Source: a virus. Taken from it: 20,764 nucleotides of DNA. Of the stretch, positions 1-17,987 are shown one piece after another (position 1 is the stretch's first letter; each line of letters begins with the position of its first letter). The notes beneath the pieces are model-generated. The model did no database searches. It worked only from the letters and a program-made list of their open reading frames with translations, and was not told where the DNA came from. The stretch is taken from IMG/VR virus record IMGVR_UViG_3300032820_000152, positions 1 to 20,764 of that record. One strand, 5' to 3'. The position numbers were made by a program, and so were the translations under genes.

Positions 1-1872
1 ATTATTTATTTCTTTTTCTATGGCTTGCATATAATATTTTGTATTAATATCATATTCTTCCCATGTTGGTTTCTTTTTTATTTTATTGAATGCTGTTTGT
101 ATCCATTTTCCTGCTTCTAATTGTATCTCTCTCCCGTCATTCTTATTTCTTTTAACAAGCTTAACACCATTGTCTGAGATATAATACCTATTAATCTTTT
201 GTAGATTCTCTTGTTTAAGCACACCATCTTTAAGACTATCCGCAACAACTTGCCAACCACTATTAGTTTTAGAACCAATACAGTAGTCTAGTATATTCTT
301 ATTTGTTTCTAGATAATCTTCAGGTAGTATATCATTTACAAAATATTGATAGATTGCTTTAGGTATAACTAACTTGGATTTGTTTTTATGAAGAGCAAGA
401 TTTTCAAATTCAAAACGTCCTTTACATTTAGCTTTCCCATAATTATCAATTGCTATATAATTATTTACATCAGCTAATATAATCTTCTTATATTCATCAT
501 GTTCAAGATTAAAGTCTGTTATGCGCTCCCAGCGGGCACAGACTTTAAGATATTCTTCTTTTGCTGATTTAGGAATGATTGTCTCAATACCATCTGTATT
601 TTGTAATAAAGGTATAGCTTCAGGAATTGCTTCCATGATCATTTCATATAGCATCATCAATGTCAGTTGACCATTAATGGTAATACGCATAGTAAATTCA
701 GGATCATATAGGAAAGAATTTTTATCATTAGATAAACCATATGTACTATTAAGTATAATTTTATATACATAGTTCATAGGATTACTCTTAGGGATTTTCT
801 TTCTTTCATCAAAGAACCATTGATATAGTTCACAAAACTCTCTACTAGGTAGATGTGCAGGAGACCACCCATTCTTAATTGCTAACATAGGGTAGAAGCT
901 AGTTACATCAGAAGACATTATAATGTTCTCATTATCAGACTTATATACTCCAGGAATTGTGCAACCGTGTGCACCACCTAAGCCAAAGTGAGTTTTTACT
1001 CCATTATATATAATAGAATGTTTAAAGGCCCCTTTTATATTATTAGGATCAAGTTCCACTGTTTTAAATCTTTCTAGCAGATTATTAAATGTTTGAGTTT
1101 GAAATTCAACATAAGGGAGAATAATCCGGTCTAACTTAATAACTTTTCTAAACGTTCTCATTCTTTTTAATTCCCTTTTATCTATGTTTAATTCCTTACT
1201 CAAATAATAACTAAATAATTCTTTAGAAATCCTTGGTTCAGATGCACTAAATAGATTAATGTTATATTGATCTGTTAATGTCTTTCTTAATGCAATTAAA
1301 TCCTTAGATCTATTATATATTTCAGTAGTAGCAGCTACATCATTTATACAATATCTAATAATTATATTCAGTTCTTCTTGAGTAGTTATTTCTGACTCAT
1401 GATCAATAGGCATATCTAAGATATTATCCCAATCCATAGTATATTCAATCCATTTAAGACTAGAACGTTTAGCCATATTATCCCAATGGTTTAGTTTAAA
1501 TACATCTATTTGGCCAATTACCATTTCCCATTCAGGGAAAGTTTGAAATTCTCTATTATTAGATTTTTTAATTGCTTCTTGGGCATATCCATATATTTCT
1601 TCAGCAATTGTTTCTCCATCCATCTTCTCATGTCTTCCATATTGATGATCTCTTATTATACAATGAGTAACTTGCGCATCAAATGCTAATCCATTATAAG
1701 ATATATGCCATTCTTTATTGTCTATATTCTGTTTTAGGAATTCTATAAACTCTTCATAATCATTTTGCAATTTACAAATAGAAAAGACACGTATCTCTTC
1801 AGTTTTATAATGTTTAAACACACCTACAAAACAATTAGATAAAGTTTCATAATCCATTATCCAATGATTCAT
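1..1872 (-). CDS. Family B DNA polymerase with 3'-5' exonuclease domain (partial, C-terminus off the left edge)
   Basis: Replicative DNA polymerase. I translated 624 codons without a stop; the C-terminus lies beyond base 1. Exonuclease motifs come first: DYE at residues 7-9 (Exo I), YNGLAFD at 59-65 (Exo II) and YCIND at 174-178 (Exo III), so proofreading should be active. The polymerase domain follows: motif A DVTSFYP at 322-328, motif B KIILNSTYG at 371-379 and motif C NTDG at 425-428. Motif C has Asn in place of the first Asp of DTD; the second, catalytic Asp (D427) is kept. The ATG at 1872 puts Exo I very close to the N-terminus; a second ATG five codons later (1857) is possible. An in-frame TAA lies upstream. 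The polymerase sits downstream of a terminator and an RNA fold, apart from the other replication genes. Probably only a short C-terminal piece is missing. Confidence 0.93.
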   Translation of the reverse strand, partial: MNHWIMDYETLSNCFVGVFKHYKTEEIRVFSICKLQNDYEEFIEFLKQNIDNKEWHISYNGLAFDAQVTHCIIRDHQYGRHEKMDGETIAEEIYGYAQEAIKKSNNREFQTFPEWEMVIGQIDVFKLNHWDNMAKRSSLKWIEYTMDWDNILDMPIDHESEITTQEELNIIIRYCINDVAATTEIYNRSKDLIALRKTLTDQYNINLFSASEPRISKELFSYYLSKELNIDKRELKRMRTFRKVIKLDRIILPYVEFQTQTFNNLLERFKTVELDPNNIKGAFKHSIIYNGVKTHFGLGGAHGCTIPGVYKSDNENIIMSSDVTSFYPMLAIKNGWSPAHLPSREFCELYQWFFDERKKIPKSNPMNYVYKIILNSTYGLSNDKNSFLYDPEFTMRITINGQLTLMMLYEMIMEAIPEAIPLLQNTDGIETIIPKSAKEEYLKVCARWERITDFNLEHDEYKKIILADVNNYIAIDNYGKAKCKGRFEFENLALHKNKSKLVIPKAIYQYFVNDILPEDYLETNKNILDYCIGSKTNSGWQVVADSLKDGVLKQENLQKINRYYISDNGVKLVKRNKNDGREIQLEAGKWIQTAFNKIKKKPTWEEYDINTKYYMQAIEKEINN

Positions 1873-2589: not shown

Positions 2590-3179
2590 ATGCTATTTCT
2601 TTTTGATTTAAGTAGCAAAGATATACTTTTTTCTTTAATTATATTCAATTCTTTTATTTTTATTTTTAAATTTTCTTTTTCTAGATCAGGTTTACTGCAT
2701 AACTCCCAAACTCTTTCTATATCTTCTAGATTAACGTTCAATTCATTTGCATAATCTTCATGATAATACTCAGGATATATATAACTTTCTATATATTCAG
2801 ATATAGGAGCTATATCACCAAAGAAATCTAATATTTGTGTTTTAGTTTTCTTTCTCATTTTTGAATATGATCCTTTAATTACATTCTGTATATCTTTTTT
2901 ATAATTAACTAGATCAAAAACATATAAATGTAAGTCTTTATCTAATTCTCTATAATCATCAAGATATTTATGATTTAATAATTGAAATTCTTCAAATTTT
3001 GCAAAAGCTTTTGTAAATTTCTGTTGATATAAGCACATTAATTTTGAGTCTTCAAAAGAATATTGCCCTTCCCATGCCATATATGTATTAATAGGTACAT
3101 ATTTAACACCTTTTTGTATTTCTAATAACGGGTATAAAAAGATTTTACTCTTTTGGAAATAGTCTTTATATATTTTCAT
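2586..3179 (-). CDS. Hypothetical protein, 197 aa
   Basis: ATG at 3179 overlaps the TAA of the exonuclease gene (TAATG), and its TGA overlaps the next ATG (ATGA), so it is translationally coupled on both sides. Predicted to be mainly helical and charged, rich in Tyr, Lys and Glu, with a lysine-rich C-terminal helix. No catalytic motif, cysteine cluster or membrane segment. Its position directly after the RecE-like nuclease suggests a role in replication or recombination, but that is context only. Confidence 0.8.
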   Translation of the reverse strand: MKIYKDYFQKSKIFLYPLLEIQKGVKYVPINTYMAWEGQYSFEDSKLMCLYQQKFTKAFAKFEEFQLLNHKYLDDYRELDKDLHLYVFDLVNYKKDIQNVIKGSYSKMRKKTKTQILDFFGDIAPISEYIESYIYPEYYHEDYANELNVNLEDIERVWELCSKPDLEKENLKIKIKELNIIKEKSISLLLKSKRNSI

Positions 3180-4222
3180 TATAAACTTATAGTTTTAGTT
3201 AAAAAATCATATGGAAGATCATATTTATTTTCTTTAATATGATAATCTGCCATGTCTAAAATCCCATTTAATCCAACTCCCCATTTATATATTGAATCCT
3301 TAGATACAGGAAAATTATAGACTTGATTATATTTATCTATCACTATAAAGTTAAACTTAATTTCATAATTCTGTACATCTTTTTCAAGATTTCTTACAAC
3401 AAGGTTGATATAAATTGCTGCTTGTAGCCAATAATTATAGAATTCTACTGTCTCAGGAAAATCTGTAATTGTCTTTCCTGTAGTCTTAATATCAATAATT
3501 GTTATTGTTTTCTTATCATGATCTATCATATACCTATCTATAAAGCCTTTTAAGCCAAAATTATAATCATTAAGGGTACAAGTAAGGAAAGCTTCATTAT
3601 GTATTTCTACAGTGTCTATTTCAAAATCAGTAGTTTCTTTAGTAAGAAGAGCATTTATAGGTTCATTATCTCTAATAATACCTACACGTGCTAAAGCTTT
3701 ATCATACATATCTTGATCTACAATGTCTTTTCCTTCAGATGTACATAAGAATCTATAATAATCTTCATTATCTGTTGTTTGAATTTTAGCAACTCTTTTT
3801 GCTTCATCTTTCATAGATTGATATAAGTTCTGATGCTTTAATGCTGTATTAATTTCTTTATTTAAAAGTGATAACTTTTCCCATTCCCAATTTTGTTCTA
3901 CTTCAGGATCTCCACTGTTAAGTGGAAGAGGTAAGTTATCTTTAACTTCATTCAATACTCTACGTACTGCTTCAGATGGGATTTTACCAGGTATCATTGA
4001 AAACTGTTTATTAAATTCCTCCGGTTGTAATAATAATAGGTGTAATAGCTTACCTTCTATAAGATGTTTATCTGTTCTTATTTCTCTATCTTTCAATATG
4101 TAATCTTTATAGAATAATTGTGGTGAAAAGATCATTCTATTAAGAGAGGAGTAACTAAAGTTAAACCTCCCTTTTTCAACACTCTCTATAAAGTTTTTTT
4201 CTAATTGTTTATCTTTTCTCAT
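3179..4222 (-). CDS. PD-(D/E)XK exonuclease, RecE / exonuclease VIII-like
   Basis: Likely processive 5'-3' nuclease that resects DNA ends for annealing. The N-terminal block SYSSLNRMIFSPQLFYKDY (about residues 23-41) followed by GKLLH (57-61) matches the usual opening of RecE/YqaJ/Cas4-type nucleases. The core follows: GFIDR with D229, then IIDIKTT with D244 and K246, and QAAIY at 267-271, the QxxxY motif of this superfamily. All catalytic residues appear present. About 350 residues fits the C-terminal nuclease domain of RecE. There are no cysteine pairs for a Cas4-type iron-sulfur cluster, which favours RecE over Cas4. It should work with the Sak4-like protein (11637-12329) and the ssDNA-binding candidate. 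Confidence 0.85.
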   Translation of the reverse strand: MRKDKQLEKNFIESVEKGRFNFSYSSLNRMIFSPQLFYKDYILKDREIRTDKHLIEGKLLHLLLLQPEEFNKQFSMIPGKIPSEAVRRVLNEVKDNLPLPLNSGDPEVEQNWEWEKLSLLNKEINTALKHQNLYQSMKDEAKRVAKIQTTDNEDYYRFLCTSEGKDIVDQDMYDKALARVGIIRDNEPINALLTKETTDFEIDTVEIHNEAFLTCTLNDYNFGLKGFIDRYMIDHDKKTITIIDIKTTGKTITDFPETVEFYNYWLQAAIYINLVVRNLEKDVQNYEIKFNFIVIDKYNQVYNFPVSKDSIYKWGVGLNGILDMADYHIKENKYDLPYDFLTKTISL

Positions 4223-4234
4223 AATAATAAAAAT

Positions 4235-5467
4235 TTAAAATGGTAAATCATTACTAATTCTTGTATATTCAGAATTTTGATTACTTAATACTATTTCAGA
4301 TAATGTTGTTTCTTTTGCTATTACCTGTTTCTGATATTTATCAGTTAATTTAACATTAGGACGATCAATTTTAAATGCACAGTCTTTTTCAAATCCACTA
4401 GATGCTTGTAATACATTTTTAAATACAAGATCTAATATTGATTCTACAACATCTGTTGTTAATGCGTCATCTTCTGCTAACATTGTTATTAATTGTGTAT
4501 ATCTACTAGTATGTCCACTATTCCAACCACCAACCATATATTTTTCAAAATCTTGTCTTAATGTTTTAAAACCAACTTGATTCCAAGTTTTAATATGTTT
4601 AAGGTGTTCTAAGTAATGAAAGAATAATAAACCCAAATATGTTTTGCTTTTTTGAATATTACAATTAGCCATCATAGTCATACCCATAATTATATCATCA
4701 TTATTTACACTTTTTAACATTTGAACTATTTTATCATATTCTTCAATATTAATAATAACAGAATCTTCTGAGGCAGCTTCATTTACATATGTATCCAAGA
4801 CTGTTTTATTTGGATTATTACATAAATATTCATAATTTGTTATATCTTCTTCTTGAATATAGTTTAGATGATAAGTTTGAAATTCTCCTAAGGCATCTTC
4901 AAAATCTGCTAGTTGTGTACCTTCAATATGATCTGCATGATAATAAGAATTAGTTAAATCAAGAGCTATATAAGTATCTTGTAATGTTGGATCATCAAAT
5001 ATTTTCCATAAATCTTCACGTATTTTTTCATCAAATAAATGTTTGTATTTATCAAATATAACTTTGAATGATGATACTGATGATAGTGATACACCATAGT
5101 GACTACTTACATAAGTTGTAAAAGTTTTTTCTGATACAATTTCTAAATCAGCTTTAGATTTATCTCTAATGACTTTGATATTATACTTATCTTTTAAACA
5201 ACTTAATTTATCTCTTGATAATGTAATCTTTGGATGTCTGTATACAGTAGATATAGTATTCCAATCAATATTATTATTTACAGTAATATTCATTGCTGTT
5301 ACTTTATCATGGTAATTATTATAACCATCTGAAATAAATAGTGCTTTTGATATATTAAAATGGTTAAGTGTTAAAGGAAAAGTCTGTTTAACATCTTCTT
5401 CATCTATACGGTTAGTATAAAAATCTATTAGTATTATTTTCTCATGTTGTTTAATCTGTGATTTCAT
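4235..5467 (-). CDS. Unknown protein, 410 aa, paralogous to its upstream neighbour
   Basis: Unknown soluble protein; its start overlaps the end of the 5451-6506 gene by 17 bases. Two segments look alike in the two proteins: residues 86-111 here (DKLSC, then KADLEIV) against 81-105 there (DRIKT, then QADCIV), and a segment with LKSVNNDD here against LKAMMNGDD there. They probably arose by duplication and then diverged. Both lie directly downstream of the MoxR ATPase and VWA/peptidase genes and may be substrates or partners of that pair. It ends with a Phe after an acidic/polar stretch (SNDLPF). No enzyme motif is visible. Confidence 0.82.
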   Translation of the reverse strand: MKSQIKQHEKIILIDFYTNRIDEEDVKQTFPLTLNHFNISKALFISDGYNNYHDKVTAMNITVNNNIDWNTISTVYRHPKITLSRDKLSCLKDKYNIKVIRDKSKADLEIVSEKTFTTYVSSHYGVSLSSVSSFKVIFDKYKHLFDEKIREDLWKIFDDPTLQDTYIALDLTNSYYHADHIEGTQLADFEDALGEFQTYHLNYIQEEDITNYEYLCNNPNKTVLDTYVNEAASEDSVIINIEEYDKIVQMLKSVNNDDIIMGMTMMANCNIQKSKTYLGLLFFHYLEHLKHIKTWNQVGFKTLRQDFEKYMVGGWNSGHTSRYTQLITMLAEDDALTTDVVESILDLVFKNVLQASSGFEKDCAFKIDRPNVKLTDKYQKQVIAKETTLSEIVLSNQNSEYTRISNDLPF

Positions 5468-6506
5468 CTGGTAATTTTATATAGTTATTGTCTTTTGTTC
5501 TTAATAATTTTCTGTATTCAGGTTTAACCTGTACAGTAAATGTATACATTTCTCTATTTGAGATGGATATTTCCTTTCTACATATAGGTTCAAAATATTT
5601 AAACACTTTATTATTTAATACTCCCTTACGTTCAAAATGTAATATTGCATCTTCAGCATTCATATGACTTAAGTCATGTATGTTTGCTTGTTCCCACCAC
5701 CATTGTACATCTTTATTTCTATTAAAATGATGTGAATGATAGTTTATAGATCCAGCTAATTCCCATAATAATTCAGGTTCTTTATTAAAATCAATAGTTG
5801 GTAGTATTGATGCTGCTACAGTACGGTCATCATCACCATTCATCATAGCTTTTAAATCTGCTACTAGTTGAGGAGTGAGAGTTTGTTTATTAGCTGAGGA
5901 TCCTAATACTGTTTCAACATCTATTACATGCATATCTCCTTTATCTATTTTACAAGCAAGTTCTAATGCTAAACCTGTTATAAGATATAAATCATATGGA
6001 ACTGATTCTGTCTCTTGATTATATGATGGATAATTAGCTTTTATTCTATCATCATATAATATAGGATACTTAATTGTTTTTGATAATGCATTAATTGAAT
6101 TACAAAAATAATAATTATTTAATTTAGACATCATTTGAGTTGTTTTCAAACTTTCTCCATTATAAAAATGTTCATCATAATTATTATGTGTAACTATACA
6201 ATCTGCTTGCTCATAATCATTAGTAACAATAATCTTATGTTCTTTAAGAGCTGTTTTAATTCTATCTGCAGATACATTACATAAAGGAAGTACAAATGCT
6301 TTCTTAACTAAAGTTAAATCATTTGTTGTCTCATCTTTTAATATATCTTTAATTTTATCATATATAATTTCTGACTCTGTTCCTAATACTGTTCCTATTT
6401 CTTTACACATAGAGTTTATCCATATACCGTAGGATCTCTCATCATCAATATTGAAATAAGAAACAGTCCCAGGATCTATGTCCTGGAATACTGTTTTCTT
6501 TGCCAT
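5451..6506 (-). CDS. Unknown protein, 351 aa, paralogous to its downstream neighbour, partner of MoxR/VWA genes
   Basis: Begins one base after the stop of the MoxR ATPase gene, so it is probably co-translated with it. It shares the KIIVTNDYEQADCIV-type segment (about 91-105) and the LKAMMNGDD segment with the next protein. Its middle has a tryptophan-rich stretch with SINYHSHHFNRNKDVQWWWE. There is no membrane segment, signal peptide or recognised catalytic motif. In other MoxR/VWA gene pairs the adjacent genes often encode the complex being remodelled or activated; that role is inferred here from position alone. Confidence 0.82.
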   Translation of the reverse strand: MAKKTVFQDIDPGTVSYFNIDDERSYGIWINSMCKEIGTVLGTESEIIYDKIKDILKDETTNDLTLVKKAFVLPLCNVSADRIKTALKEHKIIVTNDYEQADCIVTHNNYDEHFYNGESLKTTQMMSKLNNYYFCNSINALSKTIKYPILYDDRIKANYPSYNQETESVPYDLYLITGLALELACKIDKGDMHVIDVETVLGSSANKQTLTPQLVADLKAMMNGDDDRTVAASILPTIDFNKEPELLWELAGSINYHSHHFNRNKDVQWWWEQANIHDLSHMNAEDAILHFERKGVLNNKVFKYFEPICRKEISISNREMYTFTVQVKPEYRKLLRTKDNNYIKLPDEITD

Positions 6507-6507
6507 A

Positions 6508-7773
6508 TTATTTTACCGTCATTTTGATGATTTCAGGGTTCATCATCATTTTATTAAACTTTTGCTTATTTCCATTAAAGATAGTTCTTACAATTAAGTA
6601 TTTTAAATCATTAGTGAAATGATTTGCTGTACATAACATAATTAATCTATCAGTAATTTTCTGATTTATTGTATTTTCATTTGAATATACAATAGAATAG
6701 TTAGATAATCTTGTTGCTAAAGTTGACGCAATGTCTGCTCTATAATCATCTCCTTTTCCAACACATGTTGTTAGTTCACCCTTTATATATGCTTCATCAG
6801 GATGAGTTAATAATTCTTTTGGATGAACTAATTTATCTAACTTGTTGTTAATGAACGTAGTAAACATAGATGCAAATTCATCACCCACACTACCTTCACC
6901 AATCATTTGGATAAGAGAAAGATTATCTCCAAAAGATTCAAAACTAGATATAGCATTAAAGAACGTTGAGATAGATCTTGCATTAGTTTCTTGTGTTACT
7001 AACTCAGGATGTAACAATAAGAAGTTGATACATCTTGAATCTATACCGGATTCTTCTGCCCACTTGGCCCAAACATCTACATCAAACTTTAAGTTAGCTG
7101 TAATATATCTAGTCTTTTGTGCTGAGTCAATACTATTAACCATGTAATCACCATTGTCAGGATTAGCAGTTAATATAATGTGCCAATCTTTAGGAAGGGT
7201 CCACGAGATATATGTCTGTCTATCTACTAATTCCATACATGCTTGAATAAATCTAACATCTGCACGGTTCCAGTCATCTAATAATAATATACCACCTTGT
7301 TTCTTATCAGCAATCCATTCAGGAGCACAATAAGACATTCTATTCTTACCAGTCATTTGGTATCCATTCTTTAAGTAATCAGATACTGCTAATTCATCAA
7401 CCCATTGGCCAATTTTCTTTGTTACTGTTGTTATTTTTGCCAAGTCTTCTCCTCTTTGTGTACTTCTATATTCTAAATCATCTGCATCAGGAGTTACATT
7501 AATTGTTTTCTCTTTATACATTTGAAATTGTCTTACAGGAAATCCTACTAGATCACCCAACTCTTCTATCTGTGCTAAGTTTAACTTAACAAAATCCAAC
7601 TCATGTTTTTTTGCCATTTGCATTACTGCAGATGTTTTACCAATACCGGATTCACCTACTACTTCTATTGCAACAGGTAATTTATTTTCTTTTTGTAAGA
7701 ATCTATTATTCTCAATGATGTGTCCCACAAAAGAGTCTAGCTCTTCAATGTTTAAGTTTACTTCTTGTGCCAT
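6508..7773 (-). CDS. MoxR-family AAA+ ATPase (AAA_5 type)
   Basis: Chaperone-type ATPase that would remodel a protein complex using ATP. Walker A is GESGIGKT (residues 40-47), Walker B is ILLLDDWNRA (162-171), sensor 1 is LTANP (201-205) and a likely arginine finger lies at R222 in QKTRY. The spacing and the DDWNRAD form fit MoxR/AAA_5 proteins. The next gene upstream encodes a protein with zinc-peptidase and VWA domains, the classic partner of MoxR ATPases, 17 bases away. The leader AAAAAAATT before the ATG supports the start. Alternatives such as a sliding-clamp loader are disfavoured by the partner gene. Confidence 0.9.
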   Translation of the reverse strand: MAQEVNLNIEELDSFVGHIIENNRFLQKENKLPVAIEVVGESGIGKTSAVMQMAKKHELDFVKLNLAQIEELGDLVGFPVRQFQMYKEKTINVTPDADDLEYRSTQRGEDLAKITTVTKKIGQWVDELAVSDYLKNGYQMTGKNRMSYCAPEWIADKKQGGILLLDDWNRADVRFIQACMELVDRQTYISWTLPKDWHIILTANPDNGDYMVNSIDSAQKTRYITANLKFDVDVWAKWAEESGIDSRCINFLLLHPELVTQETNARSISTFFNAISSFESFGDNLSLIQMIGEGSVGDEFASMFTTFINNKLDKLVHPKELLTHPDEAYIKGELTTCVGKGDDYRADIASTLATRLSNYSIVYSNENTINQKITDRLIMLCTANHFTNDLKYLIVRTIFNGNKQKFNKMMMNPEIIKMTVK

Positions 7774-7790
7774 AATTTTTTTTTATTTAT

Positions 7791-8957
7791 TTAATTAAGT
7801 TGAATTTTCTGTCCCGGTAAGTCTTCATTGATCTCACAGTAATTATTACTACTATGAACCCATAATGCATTCTTTGGGCAATCTTCTGGAGTATGTGCTT
7901 CTCCATCTGTTAAATATATTAGAGCTGTGTATACTCCTTTCTTTTCATTATAATGATCTATAACTGGTTGAAAGTCAGTACCACCTCTACCTTTTATATC
8001 CCAATCTTTCTTAGGATTAAATACTTCTATACTACCTATCTGTGTATCACATTGTGCTACAGTGATTTGATGACCTGTCTTATGCATATGACATATCTCA
8101 TTCATAAATTCTTTAAGTTCATCAGTTGATACTGAGCCAGATGTATCTACACCAACAAGGATGTGATTCTTAAATTTAATCTTGAGTCCCGGATTAAGAG
8201 TATACCTTTTGTTATATTTACGCCTAAGCTTCTTAGTATAAGAGATAGATGAATTACCAACAAATCTTCTTAGATATTGTTTCCAAGGAAATGAAGGTGG
8301 TTCAACATTCTTTAGTCTATCAATAATCTCATATAATTCACCAGGTATATTACCACAACTCTTTTCAGTTTGTTCTGCAGTTTCTTTAAGTTGATGTTCA
8401 ATTTGTTTTTGTACTAATTTCTTATCAGCTTCAGATAACTCATCAAATTCTTTCCATGTAGGGTGATCATATTTACTATTACCATCCATCTGAGATAATA
8501 TATTTCCTACTATTGGACAAGGATTGGGTCCTGTTTGATTACATTGAAGTAAATCATAATAAACTTTTGTTCCTGCTTTCTTTGGTAAATTTAAATCAGG
8601 AAAAGTTTCAGGATACAATGCTCCTTCAGGTAAAAAATCCTTATTTATATATTGATTGATCTCTACATCTGCTGCTATATTAAATAGTTTATGATCAGGA
8701 TACATGTCCCTCATTACTAAATGTCCAAATGAAATATGTAACAATTCATGTTTTAATATCCCAATTCTTTGATTATCAGTTAGTTGCATATAAAAATCAG
8801 GATTAACACTTAACTGTACTCCTATACCATTTTTACTTACACCTGCTGTGGGTAAATCTTTTCTTATCTTTTTATTTAATCCAATTAAAAAGAAGCCATA
8901 AAAAGCTTCTTTCAACATTAGAGTTTTTCCTGCTCTGGATAATGCTTCTTGTACCAT
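7791..8957 (-). CDS. Zinc metallopeptidase-like plus VWA domain protein (DUF2201 type), MoxR partner
   Basis: Two-domain protein. The N-terminal half has HELLHISFGH at residues 70-79, an HExxHxxxGH zinc-peptidase motif, followed by NIAADVEIN (93-101), typical of the DUF2201 putative peptidase domain. The C-terminal half is a VWA domain with a complete metal-ion-dependent adhesion site: DTSGS at 271-275, Thr327 in GGTDF and Asp351 in LTDGE. An acidic linker joins them. Such proteins pair with MoxR ATPases in bacteria, and here the MoxR gene is the next gene in the operon. The A-rich leader supports the ATG at 8957. Whether the peptidase is active or only structural cannot be told, but all expected residues are present. 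Confidence 0.9.
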   Translation of the reverse strand: MVQEALSRAGKTLMLKEAFYGFFLIGLNKKIRKDLPTAGVSKNGIGVQLSVNPDFYMQLTDNQRIGILKHELLHISFGHLVMRDMYPDHKLFNIAADVEINQYINKDFLPEGALYPETFPDLNLPKKAGTKVYYDLLQCNQTGPNPCPIVGNILSQMDGNSKYDHPTWKEFDELSEADKKLVQKQIEHQLKETAEQTEKSCGNIPGELYEIIDRLKNVEPPSFPWKQYLRRFVGNSSISYTKKLRRKYNKRYTLNPGLKIKFKNHILVGVDTSGSVSTDELKEFMNEICHMHKTGHQITVAQCDTQIGSIEVFNPKKDWDIKGRGGTDFQPVIDHYNEKKGVYTALIYLTDGEAHTPEDCPKNALWVHSSNNYCEINEDLPGQKIQLN

Positions 8958-8962
8958 AATTT

Positions 8963-9343
8963 TTATTTTTTTAGTTTAATTTTTATGGGATCTATATACT
9001 CCTTTATATCCCGTATGAATGGTTTATTCAATATAATGTGTTCAAATTCTTCTGTTAATAGTTCTCTCTCAAGATCTGTAATGTTATCCCAATCAATTCT
9101 TTCTAGTATTTCATCCCATGGTAGGGGTTTTTCTGGAAGTAATTTAATTTCTGCATTAACTCTATTCTCAAAATATAAACGTTTAACAAGTAATAAAGTT
9201 AATAATTTAGAAGGTTTCATATTTTGCCATGATTCTACAGCTATTTCTAAATCTTCAGGATTGCTTGATTCAATCATTAACTTTACATTCTCATATATTT
9301 CTCTGGTGATTTTAATCTTTTTTTCTTTTATTTTTTTTTTCAT
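8963..9343 (-). CDS. Hypothetical protein, 126 aa
   Basis: Lies between RusA and the VWA/peptidase gene. The ATG at 9343 overlaps the lysine-rich end of the RusA gene by 32 bases; the next possible Met is about 23 codons in, so the longer start is kept. The N-terminus is a run of lysines (MKKKIKEKKIK); the rest is predicted helical and charged, ending in basic residues. It could bind nucleic acid or be an adaptor for the MoxR cassette. No family recognised. Confidence 0.7.
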   Translation of the reverse strand: MKKKIKEKKIKITREIYENVKLMIESSNPEDLEIAVESWQNMKPSKLLTLLLVKRLYFENRVNAEIKLLPEKPLPWDEILERIDWDNITDLERELLTEEFEHIILNKPFIRDIKEYIDPIKIKLKK

Positions 9344-9701
9344 TTATTTCTATTGTTACTCCAGGTTTTTTTTTATTGTATTCATATGGTTTGAATGATG
9401 GTATTATAAATTCACAATTGTCATCTTCAATCCATTCATGTTTTACCATATCATCTTGTACAGTTTGTAAAGGATTAACATAGTCAAATTTGTGCCGTGT
9501 ACCTCTAAAAAATTTAAAAGTTACTGATACAGGTAATTCATACTTATTAAACTCTTTAGCAAAGGAAGCGGATTGCTTTTTGTATACTTTAGCAGTTTCT
9601 TTTCTATATTTCATAACAGTTTTACTTGCTATAAAGAATTTTCCAGTCCACCGTCTACTATTTTTAGAACTTGGTACGTTACCAGGGATCCACCATTTCA
9701 T
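9312..9701 (-). CDS. rusA: RusA-like Holliday junction resolvase
   Basis: Endonuclease that cuts four-way DNA junctions. It opens with PGNVPSSKNSRR (residues 6-17), the usual RusA N-terminal motif. The acidic core follows: FDYVN (D73, N76), QDD (D83, D84) and EDDNCEF (D93, D94), matching the DxxN...D...DD pattern of RusA active sites. At 129 residues it is close to the usual 120-140. The start overlaps the primase stop by four bases (ATGA). In phage it would resolve recombination intermediates or branched DNA before packaging. Confidence 0.88.
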   Translation of the reverse strand: MKWWIPGNVPSSKNSRRWTGKFFIASKTVMKYRKETAKVYKKQSASFAKEFNKYELPVSVTFKFFRGTRHKFDYVNPLQTVQDDMVKHEWIEDDNCEFIIPSFKPYEYNKKKPGVTIEINEKKNKRKKD

Positions 9702-10684
9702 ATTGAATTTTTTATTAATTTAAATAACTTAGGTTCTACTGCAGTGAATCCATATTTAGCAACAGCATCTGATAAATCCTTCTCTGATTTAAGATAAATA
9801 GGTTCTATATTGTGTACTTTCTTATACTTAACCATTGCATCATGTCCGGCTTGATCATTATCTAGTAATGTTAGGACCTTTTTGTATTTACTCTTCAGAT
9901 TTTCAATTATATATGGTTTTATCATAGTATTCTCTGAGTCAGGAGCAATAACTTCTAAACCAAAGTTAAATGATTTAAGACACATTGCATCCTTAAGTGA
10001 TGAACATATTACAAGGTAATCTTTATCATACTTTAACTGATCAAATCCTTGTAGATGTGTAGCAATTTTTATAAACTTATGTTTCTTCTGCATAGGTTGA
10101 TATATCTTATAACATTTTGTACGTGTTTTATCATAAAAACCATACATCATTTTATTTTCTATGACTAATTTATTTACACCTTCATCTGTACTCTTAACCA
10201 TAGTATAATATTCAAGAGGGAGTACATTATATTCTTTTAATAAAGAACTTCCTATATTATATTGTAACCAATATTCTTGATCTTGTTTATTAAAATCAAC
10301 TTTAAGCTCAATATGATCTATTTTATATTTAGCTACAGGTTTATATTCTTCTGTATAATCATCCCAAAAGTTACCATTTAATACATGTGTATTATAATCT
10401 TCTGTAATTCTAAATAAAGCTTGTGAATAAGTGAGTTTAAATAATTCTTGAACTATATCAACTTTACTACCTTGTTTACCTGTGGAGAAATCTTTATACT
10501 TATACTCCATTGAAGAAGGATCAAGATAGATAAACATACTTGGTGTTCTTTCTGAGGGATTAAATACAGATGTAATTTGTACATCTTGTCCTGTTAATTT
10601 TTCTGGAAGAGTTAAGTAATGTTCAAATACCCAACTACTTCTTATTTCATTTTGATGACTTATAAAGTTTTTTGTACTAATCAT
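9698..10684 (-). CDS. TOPRIM-domain DNA primase
   Basis: Makes RNA primers for DNA synthesis. The N-terminal half resembles phage primase N-domains: SVFNPSERTPSM (39-50), KDFSTGKQGS (64-73) and VDIVQELF (75-82). The TOPRIM domain contains LLDNDQAGHDA (273-283) with the metal-binding DxD, and KDLSDAV (302-308). The usual TOPRIM glutamate position reads SSLKDAM (228-234), with Ser/Lys instead of an EG pair, a variant common in phage primases as far as I recall. No zinc-ribbon cysteines and no fused helicase are seen; the helicase is a separate gene at 13063-14019. Its leader holds two folded elements. Confidence 0.85.
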   Translation of the reverse strand: MISTKNFISHQNEIRSSWVFEHYLTLPEKLTGQDVQITSVFNPSERTPSMFIYLDPSSMEYKYKDFSTGKQGSKVDIVQELFKLTYSQALFRITEDYNTHVLNGNFWDDYTEEYKPVAKYKIDHIELKVDFNKQDQEYWLQYNIGSSLLKEYNVLPLEYYTMVKSTDEGVNKLVIENKMMYGFYDKTRTKCYKIYQPMQKKHKFIKIATHLQGFDQLKYDKDYLVICSSLKDAMCLKSFNFGLEVIAPDSENTMIKPYIIENLKSKYKKVLTLLDNDQAGHDAMVKYKKVHNIEPIYLKSEKDLSDAVAKYGFTAVEPKLFKLIKNSI

Positions 10685-11636: not shown

Positions 11637-12329
11637 TTATTGTTCATATTCTGTTATACAGCGTTTAACTAACTGTAAATCATTATCTATAAAGGGAAGT
11701 GAAAACATTTTCATTGGTGTTTTACATGTATTTTCCCCATTGTTAACAGTATCAAATCCATACTCTAAATTGTTTGGATATTCATCTTCTGTTTTTCTTA
11801 CTCTACCAAATAGCACTATAGAAAATAGTCCTTCCAAAGTTAAAGTATTATCTATCATTTTACCAATAGTTTTAGCTTTAACTTTTCTATGTCCATTTAC
11901 ATCTGTTGTTTCTTCTGAGTGAGTCAAGAAAAATATAGTTAAGTCTTCTCTCATATCTTTAGGCATCTTAGCAACCTGTGCTAGATTAGCTGCAATTTGA
12001 GTAAACTTATCATATCCTTTTTCATTTGCTCTATCAAAGTATTCAAAACTGGACATATATTGCCAATCATCTACAACTAAATTAGTTATATGTGGCATTT
12101 TATCATTCACATGTTGCATTGCTTTTATGATACCAGGTGCTGTAGAAGCTGATGTCATATTACCTTTTGAATTTTCTTTAGAAATCATAGTGTAATCTTT
12201 TTTCCAACCTTGAAAAGGTAACGGTTTGTTTGCAATGTTAATTATAAATGTTTCTTTAGGATCTAATGTCCTAATTGCTGTGGACTTTCCTGTCCCTGAG
12301 TCAGCTATGACTAATACGCTTTGTGCCAT
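11637..12329 (-). CDS. Sak4-like RecA-family P-loop ATPase (single-strand annealing protein)
   Basis: RecA-like ATPase of the type that phages use for DNA annealing or strand exchange. Walker A is ADSGTGKS (residues 9-16) right at the N-terminus, Walker B is NLVVDDWQY (83-91), and FFLTHSE (133-139) fits the following strand. At 230 residues, with no extra domains, it matches Sak4/AAA_24-type phage proteins rather than full RecA (about 350). Pairing with the adjacent ssDNA-binding candidate and the RecE-like exonuclease in the same operon supports a recombination role. A DnaC-type loader is less likely because of the N-terminal P-loop and fold order. Confidence 0.78.
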   Translation of the reverse strand: MAQSVLVIADSGTGKSTAIRTLDPKETFIINIANKPLPFQGWKKDYTMISKENSKGNMTSASTAPGIIKAMQHVNDKMPHITNLVVDDWQYMSSFEYFDRANEKGYDKFTQIAANLAQVAKMPKDMREDLTIFFLTHSEETTDVNGHRKVKAKTIGKMIDNTLTLEGLFSIVLFGRVRKTEDEYPNNLEYGFDTVNNGENTCKTPMKMFSLPFIDNDLQLVKRCITEYEQ

Positions 12330-12541: not shown

Positions 12542-13066
12542 CTATTTTAATTTTTGATTAATACTTAGTAATGCTTTTTCTATTCCTTTTAATACATCAA
12601 TTATATCCCTTTCAGTTTCTGGATTAGGTATCTTATAGAATTCCTTTTCTTCTCCTGATAATTCAGGTAAAGGATTTCTATCAGTAACATCATTAATTAC
12701 TTTTAATTCTCCTACAGGGACCATATGTCTCTTAAATCCTGAGTTACTTGTAATCAATTCATACTCTTCTTTCCAATGAGGATTATATTTTAATAGATAT
12801 AATGTTCTTTTAGGATCTTCTGATTCATAATCAATACTTACAAACTCTGTATATATATCTGTGTTATTTTCTAATTCACTAGGAAAGAATGTAACATGTA
12901 GTTCATCTTTGCCAGGTGGCCTGTATGCCATTTTAGGTATATATGCTGGTTCAGGTATATTACCATGAAAATAATCTACATGTTCTTGTAATAATTCTTC
13001 TACCTTTGTTTTACGTTCTTCTGGAGTCATTCTTTTTTTATCATTATTTTTTGTTGTTATTGTCAT
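12542..13066 (-). CDS. Hypothetical protein, 174 aa, between helicase and Sak4-like genes
   Basis: Its ATG at 13066 overlaps the end of the helicase gene by four bases (ATGA). The N-terminus is lysine-rich (MTITTKNNDKKRMTPEERK) and helical, the middle is beta-rich with YRPPGKDELHVTFFP, and the end is a helix. No catalytic or zinc motif. Its place in the replisome genes suggests an accessory role, but I recognise no family. Confidence 0.75.
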   Translation of the reverse strand: MTITTKNNDKKRMTPEERKTKVEELLQEHVDYFHGNIPEPAYIPKMAYRPPGKDELHVTFFPSELENNTDIYTEFVSIDYESEDPKRTLYLLKYNPHWKEEYELITSNSGFKRHMVPVGELKVINDVTDRNPLPELSGEEKEFYKIPNPETERDIIDVLKGIEKALLSINQKLK

Positions 13067-14019
13067 CTTCTTTGTTGTTGTGGAGGTGTGTCCATCTCCT
13101 GAATTTCCATTCTCTCAAATGCAGCTTTAAAGAAAGACATACGGGCATCCCCATTTCTTGCTTTAAGAAAGTGTAATACTAAAGTTTTTTCATCTTCTAT
13201 TATATATCTATCAGGTCCATATAATCTAATCTTTTGTTTAGCAGGCCGGTTAAGACCAATCAAAGTATCAGCATGTTGTAACATTGCATCTGAACCAAAT
13301 ATATCTGATTCAAGTACGTAATTACCATACTTACCATCTACTGCTCTCTCAGTAGTATCTATATTTCTATTAAGTTGTGATAAACATAAAAACATACAAG
13401 GATATTCACGTTTTGCTTGTGTAAAAAATTCACCTAATTCAAATAATACATCTAATCTATTATTTTGATATGGTGCTTTCTTTACTAACAAAGTATGATC
13501 TAAAGTAACTATGGTTTTAGTTCTTTGATGTTCATGCATATACATATCTAATTGTTCTTTCATTTGATTAACAGTCATTGGTGTAGATATAATATCAATA
13601 GGATATTTTACTCTATCTTTTGCATGTGAATGACATTTATTAAATACATTATCAGGTAATATAGTTCCTGCACTACATAATTCTTTATAAGTTTTACCTG
13701 TAACAGAACTAAATTCTCTTATTGCTGAGGTTCTTCCTACCATTTCAAATTGAAATTCAAGAACTCTAAAATTTTCTTCAGGATTTAATACAAATGATTC
13801 TCTAATTATTTGATCTTTAATTAAAGTTTTACCTGTACCCGGTCTACCTCCTATAACTGTAAGTGTATTCCATTCTAATCCATCTGTTATAGCATCATTA
13901 AACTTAGGCCATGGTGTTTGTATAGATTTCTCCTTACCGGATTGTCTATCAAGCATATATTTGAGTGCTTCATTAAAAGATTTATATTGTCCATCCCATG
14001 CTGGTTCTGAATTACTCAT
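13063..14019 (-). CDS. DnaB-family replicative DNA helicase, RecA-like domain only
   Basis: Hexameric helicase that unwinds DNA at the fork. Walker A is GGRPGTGKT (57-65), a catalytic Glu lies at 92 in FQFEM, Walker B is TIVTLDH with D174, the sensor motif is CLSQLNR (212-218), and FLKARNGDARMSFF near the end fits the arginine finger/coupling region. At 318 residues it lacks the DnaB N-terminal primase-binding domain of full proteins (about 450-470), with only about 30 residues before the core. It is coupled by ATGA overlap to the upstream loader candidate and to the next gene. Confidence 0.9.
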   Translation of the reverse strand: MSNSEPAWDGQYKSFNEALKYMLDRQSGKEKSIQTPWPKFNDAITDGLEWNTLTVIGGRPGTGKTLIKDQIIRESFVLNPEENFRVLEFQFEMVGRTSAIREFSSVTGKTYKELCSAGTILPDNVFNKCHSHAKDRVKYPIDIISTPMTVNQMKEQLDMYMHEHQRTKTIVTLDHTLLVKKAPYQNNRLDVLFELGEFFTQAKREYPCMFLCLSQLNRNIDTTERAVDGKYGNYVLESDIFGSDAMLQHADTLIGLNRPAKQKIRLYGPDRYIIEDEKTLVLHFLKARNGDARMSFFKAAFERMEIQEMDTPPQQQRR

Positions 14020-14691: not shown

Positions 14692-14709
14692 CTATTTATT
14701 GTATCTTTG
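14679..14709 (+). promoter_or_regulatory. Bacteroidota-type promoter for the lone plus-strand gene
   Basis: TTG (14679-14681), 20 bases, then TATCTTTG (14702-14709), a full match to TTG N19-21 TAnnTTTG. The predicted transcript would start about 15 bases before the ATG at 14729. The two promoters are mirror images about position 14685, and each -33 element lies inside the other's spacer. Confidence 0.8.
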
Positions 14710-14728
14710 TTATATAAAATCATTAATT

Positions 14729-15211
14729 ATGGCAGATAAAAACACAGTTACAGAAAAACCAGATGAGATATCTATAGAAGAAAAAGATTCTATGTTAACT
14801 ATATTTAATAATTTACCAGAAGATACTTTTGTCACAATACCTCCTGATAATATAGTATATATAGGTGTATCAGGATTATTTATTGAACAATTAACATCTG
14901 TACAAAATTTTATAACTTCATTAATACCTGAAGCAGATTTTGAAAAATTATATATAGATATGGGAAATGACTTTAAAAATAAAGATGATGAATCATGGAC
15001 TCCTCCTGAAAGATTTCATATGATAATGAAAGAATTATTATATGAAATAGCATTTCAAGGTAGTAAACAAAAACAAGATAGAATATATGATAGAAATAAA
15101 GTAGGTGAATATATGGCTAAACTTGATAAAGGAGAAGAAGTTAAAGATAAAGGTATTGATCCGTTAACATTAGATGAACTTATAAAAAGAAAAACATCTA
15201 ACGAAGATTAG
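14729..15211 (+). CDS. Unknown acidic protein, 160 aa, only plus-strand gene
   Basis: Sole rightward gene, with its own promoter 20 bases upstream. I start it at ATG 14729 (MADKNTV) because the longer frame from 14699 runs through the promoter -7 box. The protein is acidic, helical in its second half, and ends in a lysine/aspartate-rich tail; no membrane segment, cysteines or known motif. Purine-rich coding sequence, like the sense strands of its neighbours, supports reality. The end overlaps the end of the opposite gene by 14 bases. Interlaced divergent promoters suggest a regulator or very early product, but nothing in the protein shows DNA binding. Confidence 0.82.
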   Translation: MADKNTVTEKPDEISIEEKDSMLTIFNNLPEDTFVTIPPDNIVYIGVSGLFIEQLTSVQNFITSLIPEADFEKLYIDMGNDFKNKDDESWTPPERFHMIMKELLYEIAFQGSKQKQDRIYDRNKVGEYMAKLDKGEEVKDKGIDPLTLDELIKRKTSNED

Positions 15212-16886: not shown

Positions 16887-17987
16887 TTAATTATTTAAAG
16901 GGTTATAATATTTAATTTTATTTTGATCAAATCCAGATAGTGCTGACTTAACCCATTTCTCATCTTGTGTATTCATATAACATAAGATATGACATGTTGC
17001 TGTTTGATCAGGACTAAGTCTTAGTAATCTTCCTATACGTTGAGAAGATTTTCTTTCATTACCATATGAATGCATAATGATACCTTGTTTAAGACCTGGT
17101 ATACTAACACCTTCACTCAATTGTAATACACATGAAAGTTTATCTATTCTACCATCAGCAAACATTTCTAAGTTATCTTTTGAATCTTTATTCTTTGAAT
17201 GATAACTATGTTTACATATTCTATCTGCTTGTTTCTGTGTATTAGCAAAGACAATACATTTCTGACCCATATTCTTTAAGAGAGATTTAGTATAGTCTTC
17301 TTTAGTTATATAGTCCATCATAGATTTCATTCTCATTATAGATGAAAACTTTTTTTGTGCTGGTGTTTGTGCATCACCTAATCTCATTGTTGAGTATTGA
17401 TAATCATTATACTCTGATGTATACCATACACCACCTGTTTCTTTATTCTTTTTGGGTAATGTATATACTTTAGATAAGTGTAACTCATGTATAACAATTT
17501 GATATTGATTAAGTATCTTAGTATCAGATGCTTCATCAACACTAAATTCATACTTAATAGGACAGTACTTTTGTACCATTCTATATTTCTCACTTCCTTT
17601 TCTTATAGGTGGTGTACCAGTAAGTCCTAATATCTTTCCTGTAAATGAAGATAGAAAAGGTTCATGATTATCTAGAAGACTATGACATTCATCTAAGTAT
17701 ACCACATCATAATCATTTGGATTATGTTTATTAATAGATAAATATGTAGTAAATACTAGATGATTTTCTAATGGTTCTAAATCCATTTTCTGTAATTCTT
17801 TTATCCATGAATCTTTTACAGATAACTTTGGTATAACTACTAAAGCTTTTACAAAAGGATTATAGTTAGCTTGTAGGTGTTGGATCCCTATCCTAGTTTT
17901 TCCAACACCCATGCTAATACCCAAACCACACCTATTATTATTTGTAGCAATATCTAATGCTTCTTGTTGTACGTCATTCCTTCCCAT
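16887..17987 (-). CDS. SF2 DNA/RNA helicase, UvsW-like
   Basis: ATP-driven helicase. Motif I is GISMGVGKTR (23-32), motif II DECH (99-102) in VVYLDECHSLL, motif III TGTPP (123-127), motif IV-like QKCIVFANTQKQAD, motif V LSEGVSIPGL and motif VI SSQRIGRLLRL. The compact 366 residues with both RecA folds fit the UvsW/DEAD-like phage branch, which drives branch migration and restarts stalled forks. It overlaps the upstream unknown gene by 14 bases. No extra N- or C-terminal domains. Confidence 0.88.
   Translation of the reverse strand: MGRNDVQQEALDIATNNNRCGLGISMGVGKTRIGIQHLQANYNPFVKALVVIPKLSVKDSWIKELQKMDLEPLENHLVFTTYLSINKHNPNDYDVVYLDECHSLLDNHEPFLSSFTGKILGLTGTPPIRKGSEKYRMVQKYCPIKYEFSVDEASDTKILNQYQIVIHELHLSKVYTLPKKNKETGGVWYTSEYNDYQYSTMRLGDAQTPAQKKFSSIMRMKSMMDYITKEDYTKSLLKNMGQKCIVFANTQKQADRICKHSYHSKNKDSKDNLEMFADGRIDKLSCVLQLSEGVSIPGLKQGIIMHSYGNERKSSQRIGRLLRLSPDQTATCHILCYMNTQDEKWVKSALSGFDQNKIKYYNPLNN

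Follow-up and report, generated by a model that had tools for sequence, protein, structure and literature searches.

A MoxR-like ATPase, a zincin/VWA protein and two paralogous putative partners in the replication block of an uncultivated, apparently crAss-like phage

The window analysed here, a 20,764-base record of an uncultivated virus (IMGVR_UViG_3300032820_000152), carries on its minus strand a block of four adjoining genes: vwa (7791–8957; 388 amino acids), for a DUF2201-type protein with a zincin-like metallopeptidase and a VWA domain (PHROG 1314, N4 gp25 type); moxR (6508–7773; 421 amino acids), for a MoxR-like AAA+ ATPase (PHROG 1297, N4 gp24 type); and the genes for a partner protein, Y1 (5451–6506; 351 amino acids), and for its diverged paralog, Y2 (4235–5467; 410 amino acids). 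All four open reading frames lie where the first-pass annotation, made from the DNA sequence alone, had placed them. We hold with moderate confidence that they encode an ATP-driven chaperone/co-chaperone machine with Y1 and Y2 as its dedicated partners, expressed alongside the replication genes. The MoxR/VWA pair itself is of an already known kind, the N4 gp24/gp25 type (PHROG 1297/1314), and resembles a pair from jumbo phages (PMC7824862); what appears to be new here are the obligate, paralogous partners of a predicted new fold, and the mobility of the trio vwa–moxR–Y1.

Loss of synteny in related phages had been named beforehand as a finding that would refute the grouping of the four genes, and the grouping withstood this test. 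Among the 104 moxR loci left after removal of duplicates, a locus being testable where its contig had room for the neighbour in question, moxR is directly preceded by vwa in 102 of 103 testable loci and directly followed by Y1 in 76 of 76, while in the lineage of the window Y2 follows Y1 in all 52. The sole exception to the vwa–moxR order is a contig (L095) with a split moxR, and here the contig piece stops short of the expected position of vwa. Open reading frames inserted inside the module were observed at L073:10446-11048, L065:9139-9525 and L072:5699-6085, leaving the gene order intact; the inserted frame between moxR and Y1 is HNH/endonuclease VII-like, and the one between vwa and moxR encodes a 128-amino-acid protein of the form MGRYYxGDIEGKF...

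The ATPase and the zincin/VWA protein

The ATPase matches PHROG 1297 with an E-value of 1.5e-35 and, under the curated Pfam cut-offs, reaches 17.6 bits for AAA_5 (cut-off 22) and 15.5 bits for AAA_3 (cut-off 27); it would best be called “MoxR-like” through its partner and its PHROG relatives, not as a strict member of the family. The VWA protein exceeds the cut-offs for both halves of DUF2201 (PF13203, 56.8 bits with a cut-off of 23.2; PF09967, 57 bits with a cut-off of 26.4) and matches PHROG 1314 with an E-value of 6.7e-69. Of the two profiles that had been proposed for checking the proteins, DUF2201 exceeds its cut-offs and AAA_5 falls short of its own.

The motifs on which the earlier description of the pair was built, a MoxR-type ATPase beside a protein with HELLHISFGH and a complete VWA metal site, are all found. 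In the ATPase, Walker A (GESGIGKT, residues 40–47; 7633–7656), the sensor 1 asparagine (N204 in LTANPD; 7162–7164), the arginine finger (R222 in AQKTR; 7108–7110) and the sensor 2 arginine (R266 in NARS; 6976–6978), all on the minus strand, are present in the window and in nearly all relatives. The Walker B region (LLLDDWNRA, residues 163–171; 7261–7287, minus strand) has an aspartate in place of the usual catalytic glutamate, and this LLLDD form, instead of the canonical hhhhDE, recurs in 97 of the 97 relatives in which the motif was found; in relatives from isolates these two residues are DE or EE, DE being the form in the N4-type pair. In the contig with the split gene, moxR is interrupted exactly after LLLDDWNRA (L095:906-1980) by an insert of ~1.07 kb with a GIY-YIG endonuclease frame, the 3′ part of which looks by eye like a group I intron; Rfam gave no match for it. 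The usual hosts of selfish introns are conserved, important genes.

The VWA protein consists of an N-terminal zincin-like metallopeptidase domain, with the zinc-site motif HELLHISFGH at residues 70–79 (8721–8750, minus strand), and a C-terminal VWA domain, in which the metal-ion-dependent adhesion site (MIDAS) starts with DTSGS at residues 271–275 (8133–8147, minus strand) and is completed by T327 (GGT) and D351 (TDG). The MIDAS is intact in each of 106 distinct relatives, and HExxHxxxxH in all but one (105). Zinc binding and peptidase activity are putative, as read from motifs. The family label of PHROG 1314 is “HNH endonuclease”, a name common in RefSeq phage records (e.g., NC_021532 and NC_031039), and we argue that it is wrong, HExxH and the full MIDAS speaking against it.

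Relatives of the VWA protein occur in 470 phage records at an E-value of 1e-5. Pairs of PHROG 1297 and 1314 members are also found in the N4-like phage PEV2, in AR9, in Moorella phage MTATph1 and in Alteromonas phage AD45-P1, the two genes being adjacent or one small gene apart; the PEV2 pair (gp33/gp35, with a small open reading frame between the genes) is annotated as N4 gp24-like and gp25-like. N4 gp24 and gp25 belong to the core gene set shared by N4-like phages (PMC4193335). The likeness of this pair, from the Schitoviridae, to that of the window lies in shared families and neighbouring genes, whereas the identity of N4-type pairs to the window pair is only 22–31%. For group 2.2 jumbo phages, the published account of the chaperone pair describes a MoxR AAA+ protein adjoining a metallopeptidase-vWA protein (Iyer et al., PMC7824862), the same architecture as here; that account, as far as it concerns the pair, reports no Y1 or Y2 and proposes a role in virion assembly, in contrast to the replication operon of the window. 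The idea that the pair correlates with virion RNA polymerases was dropped, because the VWA protein also occurs in large T4-like phages such as 121Q and GAP32.

The putative partners Y1 and Y2

Neither Y1 nor Y2 has an assignment in Pfam, PHROG or NCBIfam, and BLASTP finds no match between them. Profile-profile alignment (hhalign) pairs them with a probability of 63% and an E-value of 7e-5, rising with more sequences to 82% and 1e-5 over 270 columns, while control profiles (VWA, MoxR and column-shuffled) give probabilities of at most 1%. Confident AlphaFold2 models of the two (mean predicted local distance difference test scores of 85 for Y1 and 83 for Y2) have a similar order of secondary-structure elements across the C-terminal part, and a structural search of viral models returned four significant matches for each, the same four proteins (BFVD A0A8S5QMV2, A0A8S5TL70, A0A8S5TKB2 and A0A6J5LXR8). 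These uncharacterised proteins, two of which belong to the same genome, come from crAss-like phages and other podoviruses and share the predicted fold of Y1 and Y2 with only 10–15% identity to them over aligned columns. Judged from profiles and models together, then, Y1 and Y2 are diverged paralogs, a single family over most of their length, as the first-pass annotation had proposed.

A fold search of the PDB, which covered the Y1 model only, gave nothing significant, and tblastn of Y1 and Y2 against 50,697 phage records gave no relative up to an E-value of 1; the model suggests that Y1 represents a new fold family. The most conserved parts of Y1 are two patches, near residues 76–105 and 301–330. 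In the N-terminal part of the partners, 6 of 36 Y1 members weakly match the BRCT family PF00533 (best E-value 0.017) and a PDB profile search ranks the BRCT domain of PARP-1 at the top, again weakly (E-value 0.036), whereas hhalign of this part against bacterial BRCT does no better than shuffled sequence. A BRCT-like N-terminal module is suggestive, and we treat it as a lead only.

The two halves of the module evolve at different rates. Pairwise NG86 ratios of nonsynonymous to synonymous substitution (dN/dS) against the nearest relatives, some from partial alignments and partly saturated, are 0.08–0.09 for MoxR and 0.16 for VWA, from which we conclude that both are under strong purifying selection; they are 0.26–0.47 for Y1 and 0.52–0.80 for Y2, the highest measured in the operon, the other measured genes having 0.08–0.24. 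The fast change of Y1 and Y2 may reflect either diversifying selection or relaxed constraint, which NG86 values do not separate. A terminator-like stem-loop of 8 pairs is also present at the 5′ end of Y1, right after the start codon (6467–6488, minus strand), and could tune the translation of Y1.

A second lineage and the genomic setting

A second set of crAss-like contigs keeps vwa–moxR–Y1, with no detectable Y2, RusA, RecB-like nuclease or relative of the window PolB. Between the two lineages the identity is 66–71% for MoxR, 62–63% for VWA and 37–43% for Y1, as opposed to only ~23–30% for DnaB, primase, helicase, terminase and portal. The second set forms one monophyletic group in each of the VWA and MoxR trees; in the VWA tree it is the sister group of the first set, and the MoxR tree has an unresolved root. 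Because the trio is 37–71% identical where portal, terminase, DnaB and primase are so much more diverged, the simplest reading of these comparisons is that vwa–moxR–Y1 was probably transferred as a module between deep crAss-like lineages. Alternatively, the trio alone would be under strong constraint, and the fast evolution of Y1 itself weighs against this.

Both lineages carry a crAss-type portal. The window holds no structural gene, and its phage is assigned, through the structural genes of its relatives, as probably an uncultivated crAss-like phage: in a near relative with the same block (L164, 114.7 kb, from a Pseudomonadales bin) the terminase, portal and head genes, on the strand opposite the replication block, match crAss-like phages and their relatives. 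We claim no host, since the two cellular bins that contain relatives conflict (Pseudomonadales and Campylobacteraceae). The VWA protein was not found in nine named crAss-like or related genomes, in a search that detected two positive controls, and Y1 and Y2 had no match in these nine genomes either, in searches that carried no positive control. The gut crAss-like phages cr114_1 and cr118_1 have two neighbouring CbbQ/CobS-type AAA genes in the replication block (L185:1642-3715; L186:11831-13001), without a DUF2201 VWA protein; a gut crAss-like gene of this type was rejected as a relative of the window ATPase, the similarity being confined to the Walker region.

Nearly all long open reading frames of the window are on the minus strand and form a replication block, so that the replication-operon setting given in the first-pass annotation is borne out, as are the names that it gave to the two neighbours, a RusA-like Holliday junction resolvase (9312–9701, minus strand) and a nuclease of the PD-(D/E)XK/exonuclease VIII-like (RecB/RecE-like) type, which comes after Y2 (3179–4222, minus strand). 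Between vwa and RusA is a small frame of 126 amino acids (8963–9343, minus strand), with BLAST relatives in the nearest relatives only, and next to RusA is a DnaG-type primase (9698–10684, minus strand). The four genes are separated by 17 nucleotides, 1 nucleotide and a 17-nucleotide overlap, with flanking genes 5 and 12 nucleotides away, and because of this tight spacing a single transcript is likely. A promoter scan gave a site count no higher than in shuffles and left the operon boundaries undrawn. The block further includes a Sak4-like gene (11637–12329), DnaB (13063–14019), a helicase (16887–17987) and PolB (1–1872, minus strand), which matches Cellulophaga phi14:2 and has QNTDGIE for catalytic motif C in place of the usual DTDS; amid this otherwise minus-strand block is an apparently real plus-strand gene of 170 amino acids (14699–15211). 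Both lineages also have a protein of ~280 amino acids (L120:6765-7619; L169:14061-14891), 35–37% identical between them, the CxxxCxYC-like motif of which looks radical SAM-like by eye; in the first of these contigs its gene is directly upstream of vwa.

Possible roles of the machine

NorQ/NorD, CbbQ/CbbO, RavA/ViaA and CobS/CobT, in which a MoxR ring works with a VWA co-chaperone bearing a MIDAS, provide the working model for the mechanism, although they are of different subfamilies and their partners are metabolic enzymes. In NorQ/NorD, as described in the published account, the ring carries one VWA co-chaperone, the MIDAS of which contacts the target and not the ring, and the target is remodelled through ATP hydrolysis; the description given there for NorD includes no zincin domain, unlike the VWA protein of the window (PMC9976466). 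By analogy, the MoxR protein would form an ATP-driven ring on which the VWA protein would dock, its MIDAS reaching acidic residues of the target; movement of the ring would remodel that target, which may also be cleaved or bound by the zincin domain. Y1, together with Y2 in the loci that have it, would belong to the machine as an obligate subunit, most likely as a substrate adaptor or as the client complex. We propose this standing for Y1 because it travels with vwa–moxR between phage lineages. The action would fall in the early or middle, replicative, phase.

Several points weigh against such a machine. Contacts among MoxR, VWA, Y1 and Y2 are what we infer from the analysis, and synteny alone would be no proof of a complex. 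The change from glutamate to aspartate in Walker B could mean weak hydrolysis. The pair, moreover, does not in general need the partners, as the N4-like, AR9, Moorella and AD45 pairs stand without detectable Y1 or Y2 nearby; when profiles of Y1 and Y2 were run against the genes that follow the pairs in PEV2, AD45-P1, MTATph1 and AR9, the best E-value was 0.79 and no match was convincing.

Of the other roles, we regard as unlikely, if well worth weighing, that of a virion-assembly chaperone, in which the pair and its partners would help in building the virion or in its proteolytic maturation, on the model of Acidianus two-tailed virus. Such a role was proposed for the similar pair of MoxR and metallopeptidase-VWA proteins in the group 2.2 jumbo phages, in the account cited above (PMC7824862), and a relative of the pair is near the mid-phase structural module of roseophage RPP1 (PMC4193335). 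In L164, however, the module belongs to the replication block, and the portal, terminase and head genes are on the other strand; N4 gp24 and gp25 are middle, not late, genes (PMC4193335); and the two lineages sharing the trio have portals that are only 23% identical.

A host-directed or counter-defence device, in which MoxR/VWA would remodel or dismantle a host complex and Y1 and Y2 would be fast-evolving recognition subunits, is likewise an improbable though reasonable proposal. Movement of the trio among lineages whose replisomes are unrelated means that it could act on a target not specific to the phage, and the dN/dS ratios of the partners, set against those of MoxR and VWA, agree with such a device. 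Yet the fast change may be relaxed constraint, PADLOC models give weak P-loop matches only (E-values 0.003 and 0.009), and Y1 is never lost in testable loci, nor Y2 within the window lineage, unlike patchy anti-defence genes. We consider quite doubtful a more specific version, namely that vwa–moxR–Y1 is a self-contained, horizontally mobile machine in which Y1 and Y2, as new-fold recognition subunits, direct an unfolding or proteolytic MoxR–VWA complex to a target in the host, perhaps one of its defences, Y2 having arisen by duplication as a second, fast-diversifying recognition subunit.

It is rather improbable, too, that the machine acts on the phage's own PolB, DnaB, primase, Sak4 and RusA. 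The position of the operon between primase/RusA and the nuclease, kept throughout the window lineage, fits the replisome-remodelling role suggested in the first-pass annotation. That suggestion is weakened, however, by the second lineage, which keeps the trio even though its DnaB, primase and helicase are only ~25–30% identical (DnaB and primase ~30%) and relatives of PolB, RusA and Y2 were not found there; transfer of the trio weakens the case for any machine fitted to its own replisome or virion. Finally, a CobST-like cobaltochelatase pair, an auxiliary metabolic function borrowing the host CobN, is hardly credible: CobS and CobT likewise combine a MoxR-type protein with a VWA protein, there are many reports of viral cobST clusters (PMC8651126) and the ATPase weakly matches phrog_249, “porphyrin biosynthesis” (E-value 4.7e-6), but PHROG 1297 fits it better by ~30 orders of magnitude, the VWA partner is a DUF2201 protein with HExxH and no CobT match, and the window has no recognised cobalamin gene.

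We thus return to the chaperone/co-chaperone machine with dedicated partners. Pairs of the N4 gp24/gp25 type are present in hundreds of phage records and are core in one phage family, many of them annotated as “HNH endonuclease” or hypothetical, and a lineage in which the partners are obligate and were apparently transferred along with the pair offers a way to the client or adaptor of such machines. The comparison of the two lineages suggests a machine that can move among phages that differ in replisome and virion, and this would narrow its possible targets, and Y1 and Y2 may be the best clue to the role of MoxR/VWA machines in phages.

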